Positions 16,772 to 20,856 of a stretch of DNA of 37,629 nucleotides are shown piece by piece. The DNA comes from a bacterium (GTDB lineage: Bacteria; Verrucomicrobiota; Verrucomicrobiia; Opitutales; Opitutaceae). The stretch lies in the NCBI GenBank assembly GCA_021782105.1, contig JAJXVO010000006.1, positions 1 to 37,629 of the forward strand, read 5' to 3'. Position 1 is the stretch's first letter. The number at the start of each line of letters is the position of its first letter. Under the pieces are notes generated by a model. That model saw nothing but the letters and a program-made list of their open reading frames with translations, was not told the origin of the DNA and made no database searches. The translations under genes were made by a program, and so were the position numbers.

Positions 16772-17839
16772 CTAGAAGAGGGCGTCCTGATTACCGTTGG
16801 AAGGCTTCAGACCGATGGCTTCGTAACCTTTTGGGGTGAGGGCGCGGCCCTGGGGGGTGCGCTGGACGTAGCCTTCCTGGATCAGGAAAGGTTCATGGAC
16901 TTCCTCGAGGGTTTCGGCTTCCTCGCCGACTGCGATGGCGATGGTGCCGATGCCGACGGGGCCGCCGCCGTAGTTTTCGGCCATGACGCGGAGCATGCGT
17001 TTATCCATCTCGTCGAGGCCGCGGGCGTCGATTTCGAGGAGTTCGAGGGCGTGGGCGGCGACGGACTGGGTGATTTTGCCCTGGGCGCGTTCCTGGGCGA
17101 AGTCGCGGACGAACAGAATGAGATTATTGGCGATGCGGGGGGTGCCTCGGGAGCGTGCGGCGATTTCGCGTGCGCCGGCGATGTCGATCTCGACCTTCAG
17201 GAGGGCGCAGCTGCGCGTGACGATGCCGCAGAGCGTGGGGGTATTGTAATAATCGAGACGGGTCTGGAGTGTGAAACGGGAGCGCAGTGGAGCGGTGAGC
17301 AGGCCGGCGCGGGTGGTGGCTCCGACCAGGGTGAATCGGGGGAGGGAGAGGCGCACGCTGCGGGCGTTGGGACCCTGATCGATCATGATATCGATCCGGA
17401 AGTCCTCCATGGCCGAGTAGAGGTATTCCTCTACGGTCTTGGACAGGCGGTGGATCTCGTCGATGAAGAGCAGGTCGCCCTCCTCGAGATTGGTGAGCAA
17501 GCCGGCGAGATCGCCGGCTTTTTCGATGACGGGGCCGGAGGTGACGCGTACGTTCCTGCCGAGTTCGGCGCCGAGGATGAAGGCGAGGGTGGTTTTGCCG
17601 AGGCCCGGGGGGCCGGAGAGCAGGACGTGGTTGAGCGGATCGCCGCGTCGGCGGGCGGCGCCGACCATGACTTGCAGGCGCTCGACGGTCTTGGGCTGTC
17701 CGGCGAAGTCGGCGAAGCTCAGCGGACGCAGCACCGACTCGGATTGGGAGAGCGGTGTGGACAGCGAGGCGGCGATGAAGCCAAGGCCGGTGGGGGCGGA
17801 GGCGGGAGGGGTGGAGGGCTCGTTCTTGGAGGGGGGCAC
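16772..17839 (-). CDS. ruvB: Holliday junction branch migration DNA helicase RuvB
   Basis: A 355-residue AAA+ motor that drives branch migration of Holliday junctions with RuvA. LRPLSFADFAGQPKTVERL is the RuvB N-terminal signature. Walker A is GPPGLGKTT, Walker B LLFIDEIHRL, sensor 1 GATTRAGLL and the Arg finger region APLRSRF. The C-terminal winged helix ends with EPFLIQEGYVQRTPQGRALT, the most conserved tail of the family. The first 35 residues are a Pro/Ser-rich extension. The gene follows the MurA-family gene by 48 bp on the same strand and is probably cotranscribed. ruvA and ruvC are not adjacent, unlike many proteobacteria. Confidence 0.98.
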   Translation of the reverse strand: MPPSKNEPSTPPASAPTGLGFIAASLSTPLSQSESVLRPLSFADFAGQPKTVERLQVMVGAARRRGDPLNHVLLSGPPGLGKTTLAFILGAELGRNVRVTSGPVIEKAGDLAGLLTNLEEGDLLFIDEIHRLSKTVEEYLYSAMEDFRIDIMIDQGPNARSVRLSLPRFTLVGATTRAGLLTAPLRSRFTLQTRLDYYNTPTLCGIVTRSCALLKVEIDIAGAREIAARSRGTPRIANNLILFVRDFAQERAQGKITQSVAAHALELLEIDARGLDEMDKRMLRVMAENYGGGPVGIGTIAIAVGEEAETLEEVHEPFLIQEGYVQRTPQGRALTPKGYEAIGLKPSNGNQDALF

Positions 17840-17887: not shown

Positions 17888-19177
17888 TCAGATCCACTCG
17901 AGTTCGGCGCCCAGGGAACGCAGATTCTCGACGAAGCGCGGGTGGGCGCGGCGGATGATTTCGGCGTTGCGGACGACGCTCTTTCCCGGAATGGACGCGG
18001 CGACCATCGTGAGGGCGACGGCGGCGCGGATGACATAGGGTGAATCGACGACGGCGGGACGGAGCGGGCGGTTTCCGAGCACGAAGATCCGGTGGGGGTC
18101 GGCGATGACGGCGTGTGCGCCGAATTTCGCCAGCTCGGGGATCCAGGAAAAGCCGTTTTCGTAGACCTTGTTCCAGAAATGCATCGTGCCTTCGCAGCGG
18201 GTGGCGAGGGCGATCATGAGGGGAAGCAGGTCCACGGAAAAATAGGGCCACGGGGCGGCTTCGATCTTGGGCAGAAGATTGGCTGTATAGGGAGTCTCCA
18301 TACGGCGTTCCTGATTTGCGCCGACGATGGCGGTGAGGCCGTCGTGGCGGATCCGGACTCCGAGCTTGGCGAAGGCGCGCGTGATCAGATCGAAATGCTG
18401 GGGCAGGGAGCGTTCGACGCGGACCTCGCCGCCGGTGATGGCGCCGAGGGCGAGGAAAGTGACCACCTCGTGGTAATCGGTGCCGATGCGGAAGGTGGCG
18501 CCGTGCAGGCGTTCGACGCCCTCGATGCGAAGCTGACTGGTGCCGATGCCCTCGATCTGAGCGCCCATGGCGGCGAGCAGGGCGCACAGATCCTGGACGT
18601 GCGGTTCGGAGGCGGCGTTGATCAGCGTGGAGGAGCCGCGGGCTATGGAGGCGGCCATGGCGAAATTTCCGGTGACGGTCACCGACATATAGTCGAGCCA
18701 ATGGCGGGCGCCGCGGAAGCCGTCGGGCAGTGCGATCTCGAGCGGTTGGGCGTCATGGATCTCGGCGCCGAGGGCTGCGAGCACCTCCAGGTGGGGGTCG
18801 ATCTCGCGCACGCCCAGCGAGCAGCCCTTGGCGTTTGCGGCGATGACGATGCGCTTCACTCGGTGCAGGAGGGCGGGGTAGAGCAGCACGGTGGACCGCA
18901 TGTCCTGGGGCAGCTCGTGGTTGGCGAGTTCCGGCCGGAAACCACGGTGATCGATGTGCATGGTGCCCGCGGCCTTGTCCCAGGCAATGGAGGAACCCTG
19001 TTGGCGGAAGAAGGCGACGAGCTTCTCGAGATCGGTGATCTCCGGGACGTTCTCGAGGGTGACCGGCTCGTCGGTCAGCAGGGTGGCGCAGAGGACGGGC
19101 AGGGCGGAATTCTTATTGCCCGAGGGCACGACGGTGCCCGCGAGCGGCTTGCCGCCATGGACGATGAGATCGGACAT
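17888..19177 (-). CDS. murA: UDP-N-acetylglucosamine 1-carboxyvinyltransferase (MurA family)
   Basis: A 429-residue EPSP-synthase-fold enzyme. MurA transfers enolpyruvate from PEP to UDP-GlcNAc, the first committed step of peptidoglycan synthesis. Active-site residues are recognisable: Lys22 and Asn23 in PSGNKNSALP, Cys119 and Arg124 in AKGCSLGVREIDPH (Cys115 and Arg120 in E. coli), Asp316 in PYFSVDLLPLM (Asp305), and Arg384 in YVIRAAVAL (Arg397). The loop around the Cys is divergent (AKGCSLG rather than PGGCAIG), and several conserved glycines are changed. It could be a MurA-like paralogue rather than the only MurA. The Cys predicts fosfomycin sensitivity. It lies between an intrinsic terminator upstream and ruvB downstream. 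Confidence 0.88.
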   Translation of the reverse strand: MSDLIVHGGKPLAGTVVPSGNKNSALPVLCATLLTDEPVTLENVPEITDLEKLVAFFRQQGSSIAWDKAAGTMHIDHRGFRPELANHELPQDMRSTVLLYPALLHRVKRIVIAANAKGCSLGVREIDPHLEVLAALGAEIHDAQPLEIALPDGFRGARHWLDYMSVTVTGNFAMAASIARGSSTLINAASEPHVQDLCALLAAMGAQIEGIGTSQLRIEGVERLHGATFRIGTDYHEVVTFLALGAITGGEVRVERSLPQHFDLITRAFAKLGVRIRHDGLTAIVGANQERRMETPYTANLLPKIEAAPWPYFSVDLLPLMIALATRCEGTMHFWNKVYENGFSWIPELAKFGAHAVIADPHRIFVLGNRPLRPAVVDSPYVIRAAVALTMVAASIPGKSVVRNAEIIRRAHPRFVENLRSLGAELEWI

Positions 19178-19224
19178 GCTCGCAGAATCGGCGAGCGTGG
19201 GGGCGGAATCCAGACGGAAACGAC

Positions 19225-19253
19225 AAAAAAAGGCACCCGTGTGAACGGGTGCC
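19225..19253 (-). terminator. Intrinsic terminator of the Arg-rich protein gene
   Basis: On the minus strand, GGCACCCGT and ACGGGTGCC pair perfectly (9 bp; plus-strand arms 19232-19240 and 19245-19253, loop of 4 nt) and are followed directly by a run of seven T. It sits 20 bp after the stop of the disordered Arg-rich protein gene and 48 bp before the MurA-family start, so it separates the two transcription units. Confidence 0.9.
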
Positions 19254-19273
19254 TCGTGTGGAAGGAGGGGGGC

Positions 19274-20386
19274 TCAGGCCTGCGGGGGACGGGGGTCGCC
19301 GCCGCGGTAATCGCCGCGACCCTGGTCGCCGTGATGACGACCGCGACCGCCGCGACGGCGGCGACGGCGCTGGCCGCCATCGCCTCCGCGACCGTAGTCG
19401 GAGTAGGAATTGCCGCCTTCGCGCTGGCCCTGCTGCTGAGCGCCGCCGGGACCTCCGCGGCGTTCGCCGCCTTCTCCGCGACCGCGACCGCCGCGATTGC
19501 GGTTGTTGCGGTTCCTGGAGAGATCGCCGTCACGGCGGGGTTCGGGCTGGGGAGCGGGTTCCTCGGGTTTGGCGAAGAGGCTCTTGAGCCAGGCGAACAG
19601 ACCGCCCTTCTTGGGGGCGGGCTCTTCCTTGGGAAGCGGACCTCGCTGTTCGATGCGCGGCTGGTCGCGCCGGGGACCGCGGTCCTGGCCGCGGTCCTGG
19701 CGTCGATCCTGACTGCGGATCTGATTGCGATCTTCGCCGCGAGCATCACTGCGATCTTCGCCGCGAACCTCGCTGCGAACCTCGTCACGATTCTCGTCAC
19801 GGTCTTCGCGGCGGGGCCGGCGGTCGCCGGACTCGCGAGTGCGGAAAGACGGACGATTCTCCCAGCTTTGGGCGGGACGCTTGGTCTCGGCGGGCGGGAG
19901 GATATTGAGCGTGGCTTCGGAGGGCTCCTCTGCGGTGCTCGGTTCGGGTGTCGGGTTTGCGTCGCGAGGCTGCTCGACTTTGGGGGCGGGAGCCGGCGCG
20001 GGCGTGGGGATGGAGCTGACCGCGGGGGCCGGCTCCACTTCGGGTTTTGCTTCGACGACCGGAGCCGGAGCCGCGGGAGCGGCGGGCTGGGCGGGCGCGA
20101 AGGGATTCACGAAGCTCGTCTCGTTTTTGACGACTTCGATGGAGGTCGGCGTGTACTCTGCATTCTGGGCGACGGCGGAAGCCGGCGCGCTCGACTGACG
20201 TTTGCCGCGGGCCAGACCTGAACCGCGGGTGCTGCCGAAAGCCCCGGCATTGGGCGTGGATGACTCAGTCGCGGGCGCGGGTACGGAAGCCTCTGTAGGG
20301 GCTGCGGGCGCGGCGGACGTGGCTGGCGTGGGCGCAGGCTCGGAGTGAGCCGCGCCGGGTGCGCCAGACTGTTCTGTATCTGACAT
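19274..20386 (-). CDS. Intrinsically disordered Arg-rich protein with Asp-Arg repeats and RGG tail
   Basis: A 370-residue protein with no recognised domain. Residues 1-170 are Ala/Pro/Glu-rich. Residues 183-240 are a charged block of degenerate DR, GEDR and QDR repeats. GGLFAWLKSLFAKP (261-274) is a short amphipathic or hydrophobic helix. Residues 285-370 are Arg/Gly-rich with RGG-like and polyarginine stretches ending in DPRPPQA. The charge pattern suggests RNA binding, and the small helix between disordered arms recalls membrane- or partner-docking segments of RNA degradosome scaffolds; this is inference. ATG 20386 is preceded by AAGG. A strong terminator follows, so it is a monocistronic unit. 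The repeat block also shows 12- and 24-bp DNA repeats. The long antisense open frame over it is an effect of base composition. Confidence 0.72.
   Translation of the reverse strand: MSDTEQSGAPGAAHSEPAPTPATSAAPAAPTEASVPAPATESSTPNAGAFGSTRGSGLARGKRQSSAPASAVAQNAEYTPTSIEVVKNETSFVNPFAPAQPAAPAAPAPVVEAKPEVEPAPAVSSIPTPAPAPAPKVEQPRDANPTPEPSTAEEPSEATLNILPPAETKRPAQSWENRPSFRTRESGDRRPRREDRDENRDEVRSEVRGEDRSDARGEDRNQIRSQDRRQDRGQDRGPRRDQPRIEQRGPLPKEEPAPKKGGLFAWLKSLFAKPEEPAPQPEPRRDGDLSRNRNNRNRGGRGRGEGGERRGGPGGAQQQGQREGGNSYSDYGRGGDGGQRRRRRRGGRGRHHGDQGRGDYRGGDPRPPQA
19675..19812. repeat. Short tandem repeats (12/24 bp) encoding the Asp-Arg block
   Basis: On the plus strand GCGGTCCTGGCC and GCGGTCCTGGCG lie in tandem near 19680-19701. 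GCGATCTTCGCCGCGA recurs at a 24-bp step (about 19727 and 19751), followed by CGTCACGATTCTCGTCACGGTC. These are in-frame multiples of 3 and code for the GEDR/QDR repeats of the Arg-rich protein, so the number of repeats can change without breaking the frame. Confidence 0.65.
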
Positions 20387-20856
20387 GTTTGTATTACCTT
20401 ATGGGTTGAGGCGCGCTCACCGGTGAATCAGGGAGCAGCAGCCGTTGTGTGAAATGCGGCGGAGTGCACAGGGATGGACGCTCTACGCCAGCATTCTCCT
20501 AGGAGTAGCGAAGGGGCCGGAGCTGCGGCAACTGCAAATTACCTGGGAGACTACGAAGATGGGGTAGGAATATCGGGATTCGGCAGGTTTCCTGCTTGCG
20601 CACGGAGCCGTTGAGCATGTTTGCGCAGGGGGTGGGCGAACGGCCAGACTTGGCGATGCGATTGAACACACGAAAACGAATCCAACCAAGTGGAGAGAAC
20701 CAAGCTGCGATGGGACAAAAAACTCGAAATCGACCCGCCGCTCAGGTGGACGCATGGAATTTCCCGGCCAACTTCGGGGCAACGGCCTGGTCCTTTGCAG
20801 GTCCTTGTTGAATTCAGCGGTCGAATCGACATGACCGTTGACTGCTGCGTTTCAGG
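20387..20856. other. 470-bp intergenic region, no gene seen
   Basis: This spacer between the divergent Arg-rich protein gene and DUF2127 gene holds no convincing coding frame; the open frames on the minus strand have no family-like sequence or start signals. GGTAATACA just before 20386 on the minus strand could be part of the promoter of the Arg-rich gene. I see no hairpin with a T-run and no tRNA. Confidence 0.5.

Follow-up and report, generated by a model that had tools for sequence, protein, structure and literature searches.

The gene described here raises the question of what a disordered protein does that has diverged rapidly and is yet held at one locus in Opitutales. The window, meaning the whole stretch of 37,629 nucleotides that was analysed, corresponds to contig C64 in a draft genome of 4.0 Mb from the Opitutaceae (Verrucomicrobiota). 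An earlier note, made from the sequence alone, had read the gene as coding for a scaffold of RNA granules or degradosomes with expandable Asp-Arg repeats. Its description is right, the reading frame lying at the stated position, on the minus strand, with an ATG start and a length of 370 aa, and its guess at function was a reasonable one; its emphasis on the repeats was misplaced, and the SLiMs of the N-terminal half went unmentioned. To that description we add these conserved N-half motifs, a covarying leader RNA, a terminator belonging to the gene itself and the shortness of RNase E/G in the order. The gene and its two neighbors are as follows.

19274..20386, minus strand: open reading frame of the disordered protein, 370 aa, ATG start (69 aligned orthologues, plus profile matches in genomes of the family)
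17888..19177, minus strand: murA-family gene (PRK09369 subfamily), next downstream, a positional landmark (domain searches and relatives' loci)
16772..17839, minus strand: ruvB, second gene downstream, a positional landmark (domain searches and relatives' loci)

Extreme composition and fast divergence might suggest that this low-complexity frame is spurious or drifts neutrally within GC-rich DNA, perhaps as the antisense of a 709-aa plus-strand ORF (18092-20221, plus strand) that overlaps the gene and part of murA. The GC1/GC2/GC3-type figures of the gene, 0.76/0.63/0.72, lean the same way, GC3 being no higher than GC1, unlike in murA and ruvB. Nevertheless, this reading is already contradicted and can be regarded as extremely improbable. 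Eighteen residues are invariant in 69 sequences (M1, F50, G55, G57, L58, R60, G61, K62, P80, N94, P95, F96, I162, L163, W175, G262, W266 and K268), and the leader, start and terminator are conserved. Moreover, residues invariant in 27 orthologues use most of the available synonymous codons, so that constraint acts on the protein. No competing conserved frame crosses the gene in these 27 orthologues; the antisense frame is open across it in just one of them, and the 709-aa ORF was rejected as a gene and attributed to GC-rich composition.

No folded domain is recognizable, as the earlier note had expected. The Pfam search of the protein returned no family at E<=1, the single NCBIfam match scored 13.9 bits, far below the cut-off of 150, and a PDB profile search gave eight chains at E<=10 (best 0.2), with the displayed alignments lying in low-complexity stretches. 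An AlphaFold2 model based on 69 aligned sequences has a mean pLDDT of 49.0, a pTM of 0.18 and no residue above 90. Its sole structured element is a helix at residues 263-271 (pLDDT of the block about 80), and block 91-100, which holds the NPF motif, has a pLDDT of 77. The Ala/Pro arm and the RGG/poly-Arg tail of the original description are plain in the composition. Ala/Pro arms (13 A and 9 P in residues 1-48, 23 A and 24 P in residues 64-174) surround FG..RGSGLaRGKR; there follow Y.PT.IEV...EY.NPF, LxILPP..KRpaqsW and RPxFRPERR, then an Arg/Asp/Glu block, KKsGGffgWLKgLFgg and two Arg/Gly blocks, with 23 R and 27 G in tail residues 274-370.

20198..20239, minus strand: motif FG..RGSGLARGKR (aa 50-63), the most conserved SLiM (F50, G55, G57, L58, R60, G61 and K62 invariant in 69)
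20099..20155, minus strand: motif Y.PTSIEV...NPF (aa 78-96) (P80, N94, P95 and F96 invariant in 69; pLDDT 77 at 91-100)
19859..19909, minus strand: motif LNILPPaE.KRPAQSW (aa 160-176) (I162, L163 and W175 invariant in 69)
19277..19528, minus strand: Arg/Gly-rich tail (aa 287-370) with two Arg-rich blocks (composition, and conserved blocks in orthologues)

In 27 orthologues, the spacer from RGSGL to ILPP measures 111 +/- 9 aa and that from the helix to the C-terminal end 111 +/- 12 aa. Judged by sequence comparison, the conserved parts of the protein are the short motifs, the helix GGFFGWLKGLF and the Arg/Gly blocks, and not the Asp-Arg repeats. The SLiMs of the N-terminal half are likely to be partner sites.

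The repeats themselves are as first described, a block coded by 12- and 24-bp in-frame units, although their copy number is low in the window's gene.

19655..19831, minus strand: Asp/Glu-Arg repeat block, approximately aa 186-244, a probable variable linker (TRF, composition and orthologue alignment)
19726..19778, minus strand: 24-bp in-frame tandem repeat, 2.2 copies (TRF score 85, the highest in the window)
19677..19701, minus strand: 12-bp in-frame tandem repeat, 2.1 copies (TRF score 50)

When the codon order of the block was shuffled, none of 200 versions reached a TRF score of 85, while 8 of 200 protein-preserving synonymous codon swaps did (mean 59); repetition of the protein thus explains most of the repetition in the DNA. 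Nine of the 27 orthologues carry a tandem array within the block from ILPP to the helix, with differing units, and 44 of the 45 arrays counted in all 27 have a period divisible by 3. The suggestion that repeat number can vary without loss of frame therefore stands for comparisons between species, and not for comparisons within strains. The spacer from ILPP to the helix varies as well (97 +/- 17 aa, range 66-143, in 27 orthologues). Being the least conserved and most length-variable segment, the Asp-Arg repeats were rejected as the functional core, and the block reads as a flexible linker of variable length.

The short hydrophobic helix, to which a docking role had been assigned, occurs once in the genome as a DNA pattern.

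19568..19612, minus strand: amphipathic helix KKGGLFAWLKSLFAK (aa 259-273), membrane-targeting-like (H263-271 in the AlphaFold2 model; pattern in 27/27 orthologues)

Its 11-mer hydrophobic moments range from 0.56 to 0.66 in 27 orthologues, compared with 0.62 for the corresponding 11-mer of Escherichia coli RNase E. In 26 of the 27 the moment is exceptional against shuffled sequences (P <0.05), the window copy, at 0.068, being not significant alone. In other families the sequence of the helix has changed and its amphipathicity is retained. The short helix of the earlier note is supported; as for docking, amphipathicity that is kept across families without kept sequence would fit membrane targeting at least as well.

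The spread of the gene depends on how it is sought. The single protein as a query found matches in 29 of 57 genomes, its own genome counted, and a profile of 27 orthologues matched 129 of 150 sampled genomes of the family at E<=0.001 (122 at E<=2e-25 and seven weakly). In an order-wide sample the same profile matched 12 of 132 genomes, 10 of them in Opitutaceae. Orthologues lie nearly always directly upstream of murA-ruvB. Among 79 named loci (ORF present in 78, flank short in 8), murA directly follows the gene in 67 of the 70 with enough flank, and ruvB comes after it in 56 of 59.

Profiles fail outside this core group, and the wider family was sought by inspecting the region upstream of ruvB. 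Six weakly matching Opitutaceae (G016, G031, G034, G121, G139 and G156) have a disordered gene beside murA or ruvB that combines a similar helix and an Arg-rich tail with a different motif set, such as YGTRK.RPGA, DDLPVRATAP and EFRPSRDG; it lies 1155 nt from ruvB in G034 and is cut off by the contig end in G031. A further 14 Opitutaceae loci, without a profile match, were examined. Four of these have no room for the gene, and of the other 10, six have such a gene adjoining ruvB, one (G084) has it 3.8 kb upstream of ruvB (L204 1235-2257, minus-strand coordinates) and three (G146, G011 and G021) lack it. In other families of Opitutales, each represented by one genome, a gene of the same design stands just upstream of murA-ruvB in 11 of 16, many of these genes beginning MPEFE, and families f3, f6, f9, f16 and f17 have no such gene at this position. 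A class-wide set of 20 loci from outside the order, 19 of them usable (one was too short), contains none with a convincing adjacent disordered ORF; the overlapping ORF at L225 reads as an out-of-frame artefact, and the candidate at L214 lies 902 nt away and is not adjacent. Our own composition criterion for disordered ORFs is not specific by itself, as it also passes three others among the 64 ORFs of the window. That the divergent genes are homologous we infer from where they lie and how they are laid out; it does not rest on alignment. The protein belongs to a fast-diverging disordered family held at one locus in Opitutales, and it illustrates that a disordered protein can diverge widely and still keep its genomic position and the order of its parts.

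In the core group the gene is preceded by a structured leader.

20412..20497, minus strand: 5' leader RNA with two hairpins, diverged from the leader conserved in relatives (matched by covariance model R2 with 21.1 bits and E 0.009 in a search of 0.89 Mb)

A folding test that is model-free, and independent of any fit to a covariance model, gave a mean z of -3.25 for 73 leaders, with 84% below -2, compared with -0.14 and 7% for 71 control stretches located 500-600 nt upstream. A MAFFT alignment of 60 leaders yielded no RNAalifold pair, and model R1, which was sequence-only, was set aside. The covariance model R2, seeded from 11 leaders chosen for one common geometry, matches the leader in 75 of 79 named loci, the 11 seeds included. 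In an alignment fitted to this model (74 distinct rows, with four off-locus rows and the window among the sequences), 24 of 27 pairs have both partners changed, the share of paired cells is 92.1% versus 79.8% after shuffling, and the covariation score is 0.319 versus 0.140, a value of 0.319 being reached in none of 500 shuffles. Controls in which the pairing was slid collapse to 30-53% of cells paired. The window leader is a weak match to R2, folds weakly by itself (z -1.42) and appears to be a worn or divergent copy.

Rfam 15 detects no family in the window at gathering scores; at E<=1, L094 has only sub-threshold minus-strand matches and L119 none. An earlier description of the two-hairpin leader was not found in the open-licence literature. 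R2 matches 13 of 34 relatives at E<=0.01, some only or additionally at other places, and it does not find the element with the divergent gene types. The leaders of divergent members, at 24 loci, have no common element (mean z -1.02, seven below -2). The best R2 match in the window's own genome (G000:C80) falls within another ORF, at its 3' end, and seems a chance match rather than a second leader copy, and further extra matches occur in G004, G002 and G009. In the window (20412-20497, minus strand) and in leaders L077-L155, an A/C-rich stretch follows the leader, with no clear Shine-Dalgarno sequence before the ATG.

The following features bound the probable transcription unit.

19230..19255, minus strand: intrinsic terminator between the gene and murA (terminator scan; present in relatives' gaps)
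20502..20531, minus strand: putative promoter, TTGCCG ... TACTCC (from column spacing in 64 leaders)
20528..20540, minus strand: AATTTGCAGTTGC, a conserved element lying upstream of the leader, read as DNA of a promoter or operator (seen in a position profile over 64 leaders)

Of 71 relatives, 68 have a terminator in the gap that leads to murA, compared with 1 of 71 shuffled gaps. Because it separates the two genes, the disordered protein is probably expressed from its own transcription unit. An operon with murA is unlikely, both for this reason and because loci with ruvB but without murA keep the gene. The conserved, covarying leader together with the terminator before murA indicates that the gene is probably regulated separately. 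In 64 leaders, TTGCCC- and GAnnnT-like columns stand about 17 nt apart just before the leader; a sigma-70 consensus scan of the window called no site at 20502..20531. The element AATTTGCAGTTGC is kept in most of the 64. Its GTTGCCC and a downstream GGGCGAC form a dyad overlapping the putative -35 and -10, which may be an operator or a third hairpin.

The features assembled above invite comparison with the non-catalytic half of RNase E. The RNase E/G of the window's own genome is coded by another gene (PF10150 match in G000:C347) and ends directly after the catalytic part, and in the order as a whole (132 genomes, 128 with a match) no open frame for RNase E/G exceeds 651 aa. RNase E/G of Opitutales is, in this sample, the catalytic core only. 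At L194 (888-2732) the enzyme has an N-terminal extension before the catalytic part, without a C-terminal extension. A 2011 review lists RNase E/G proteins of Chlamydiae/Verrucomicrobia at 510-554 aa with no predicted degradosome, and infers that bacteria with short RNase E/G appear to be without scaffold regions (PMC3071783). That RNase E in Opitutales lacks the degradosome-scaffold half fits the guess of a scaffold made for this gene; nevertheless, shortness is weak evidence for one, because short RNase E/G is common to many phyla.

One account of RNase E distinguishes an MTS, Arg-rich sites and AEPV-rich segments, and names the family of the PNPase site as Pfam12111 (PMC4435900). According to another (PMC11964227), the number of REER repeats differs between species, and these repeats take part with AR1 and AR4 in RNA binding and in the formation of foci. 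In the E. coli RNase E sequence, as inspected by us, an Ala/Pro linker is followed by GLLSRFFGALKALFSGGEETKP and then by an Arg-rich stretch. The Opitutales protein resembles the C-terminal half of RNase E from E. coli and Pseudomonas in its disorder, its Ala/Pro(/Glu/Val)-rich segments and its fast divergence with conserved SLiM islands. By analogy, its short amphipathic helix of apparent membrane type and its Arg-rich stretches would correspond as well, and Arg-Glu repeats of species-dependent number are found in both. Unlike that half, it is coded by its own gene at another locus, has its own SLiMs and shows no detected homology: the best BLASTP match to E. coli RNase E (residues 1-789) has E 0.072 and falls in an Ala/Pro low-complexity stretch, and the alignment of the helix has E 86. 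The order of parts also differs, since the helix of RNase E directly follows the catalytic domain, and Pfam finds no catalytic RNase E/G domain (PF10150) in the disordered protein. No site for PNPase, enolase or RhlB/RhlE was recognized in it; there is no Pfam match and so none to Pfam12111. The missing match says little, because such partner sites are clade-specific. The degradosome-scaffold design first proposed keeps its disorder, its RNA-binding-like Arg/Gly composition and its RNase E-like layout, and loses the repeats as its key part.

We tentatively propose, with rather less than even confidence, that the gene product is a disordered hub that acts like the non-catalytic C-terminal half of RNase E as a separate polypeptide. 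The amphipathic helix (aa 259-273) would sit on the inner membrane, and the Arg/Gly tail and the Arg-Glu/Asp block would bind RNA. The N-half SLiMs (RGSGLaRGKR, Y.PT...NPF and LxILPP..W) would dock partners, among which the short RNase E/G and further enzymes of RNA decay are plausible, and the repeat block would serve as a linker of variable length. Expression would proceed from the gene's own transcription unit, where the two-hairpin leader may serve control after transcription; autoregulation is plausible, through the protein itself or through RNase E. This role for the leader is modelled on E. coli rne, for which feedback regulation via the 5' UTR has been described (PMC10989929). As in E. 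coli and Synechocystis, where RNase E is controlled through its 5' UTR, a structured or regulated leader precedes a component of RNA decay, here a proposed one. The leader described here differs from those in having two hairpins and no Rfam match or known ligand, and its autoregulation is suggested by analogy. We infer membrane binding, RNA binding, partners and autoregulation; phase separation into RNA-dependent condensates, to which composition would point, and membership in a degradosome are hypothetical. The non-significant moment of the window's own helix copy, the weak match of its leader and the position of the best R2 match inside another gene count against the proposal.

Membrane-associated hubs of RNA decay outside the RNase E scaffold are the idea shared with the RNase Y/RNase J degradosomes of Bacillus and Helicobacter. 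In those systems the nuclease itself bears the membrane or partner sites, whereas the scaffold proposed here is free of nuclease. A fuller version of the proposal is that in Opitutales the scaffold half of RNase E is provided in trans by a separately encoded, membrane-anchored RNA-binding protein that recruits the nuclease, controls its own production through an undescribed leader and has diverged almost beyond recognition with its locus and part order kept. By analogy this may be so, although it is rather unlikely to hold in every part. In either form, a conserved candidate scaffold across the whole order makes the degradosome question testable for bacteria with short RNase E/G.

Alternatively, the protein could be a membrane-associated RNA chaperone or ribosome-associated factor outside RNA decay that serves translation, cold adaptation or RNA folding. 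The Arg/Gly tail, the helix and the structured leader are compatible with any RNA-binding protein that regulates its own mRNA, and nothing points to a nuclease partner. However, at least three strongly conserved SLiMs in the N-terminal half suggest a hub with several partners rather than a simple chaperone, and the likeness to the C-terminal half of RNase E is specific in its parts list, so that we consider a chaperone unlikely. Arg/Gly tails are able to bind DNA as well as RNA, and a nucleoid-to-membrane tether can be imagined with the Arg-rich tail on DNA, the helix on the membrane and the link to ruvB indicating DNA work; ruvB does stay beside the gene even where murA is absent (L069, L070 and L076). 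It is nevertheless improbable, since the terminator conserved before murA-ruvB in Opitutaceae (68/71) means that these genes do not clearly form one operon, and RGG-type tails are more typical of RNA binding.

The neighborhood also admits a partner or regulator of MurA at the membrane, with the conserved N-terminal motifs docking MurA. It would account for murA following directly in 67 of the 70 loci whose flank is long enough, and for a motif set that shifts with the murA copy, as in G016 and G031, where murA is 35-37% identical and the motifs differ. Yet loci without murA keep the disordered gene beside ruvB (L069, L070, L076, L202 and L205), the gene has its own terminator before murA, and a partner of MurA alone would have no need of an Arg/Gly tail. 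We therefore find this alternative quite improbable. More generally, a partner specific to MurA or RuvB is weakened by the terminator before murA and by the ruvB loci that keep the gene without murA. The RNase E-like hub remains the reading that we prefer.

The murA gene at this locus may have a history of its own. Comparison of the window copy (17888-19177) with loci L067, L071, L072, L073 and L179-L192 gave about 66-81% identity in named core loci; in part of the Opitutaceae and in most of the other families it was only some 32-37%. The pattern looks, from these sequences, as if another murA copy had been swapped in at a fixed position. A 60% identical murA copy occurs without the disordered gene in G038. 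Finally, two loci of divergent members with the YGTRK motif set (L202 and L205) have in common a different hairpin just before the start codon, with arms like TCAGTCGA ... CCGACTGA.
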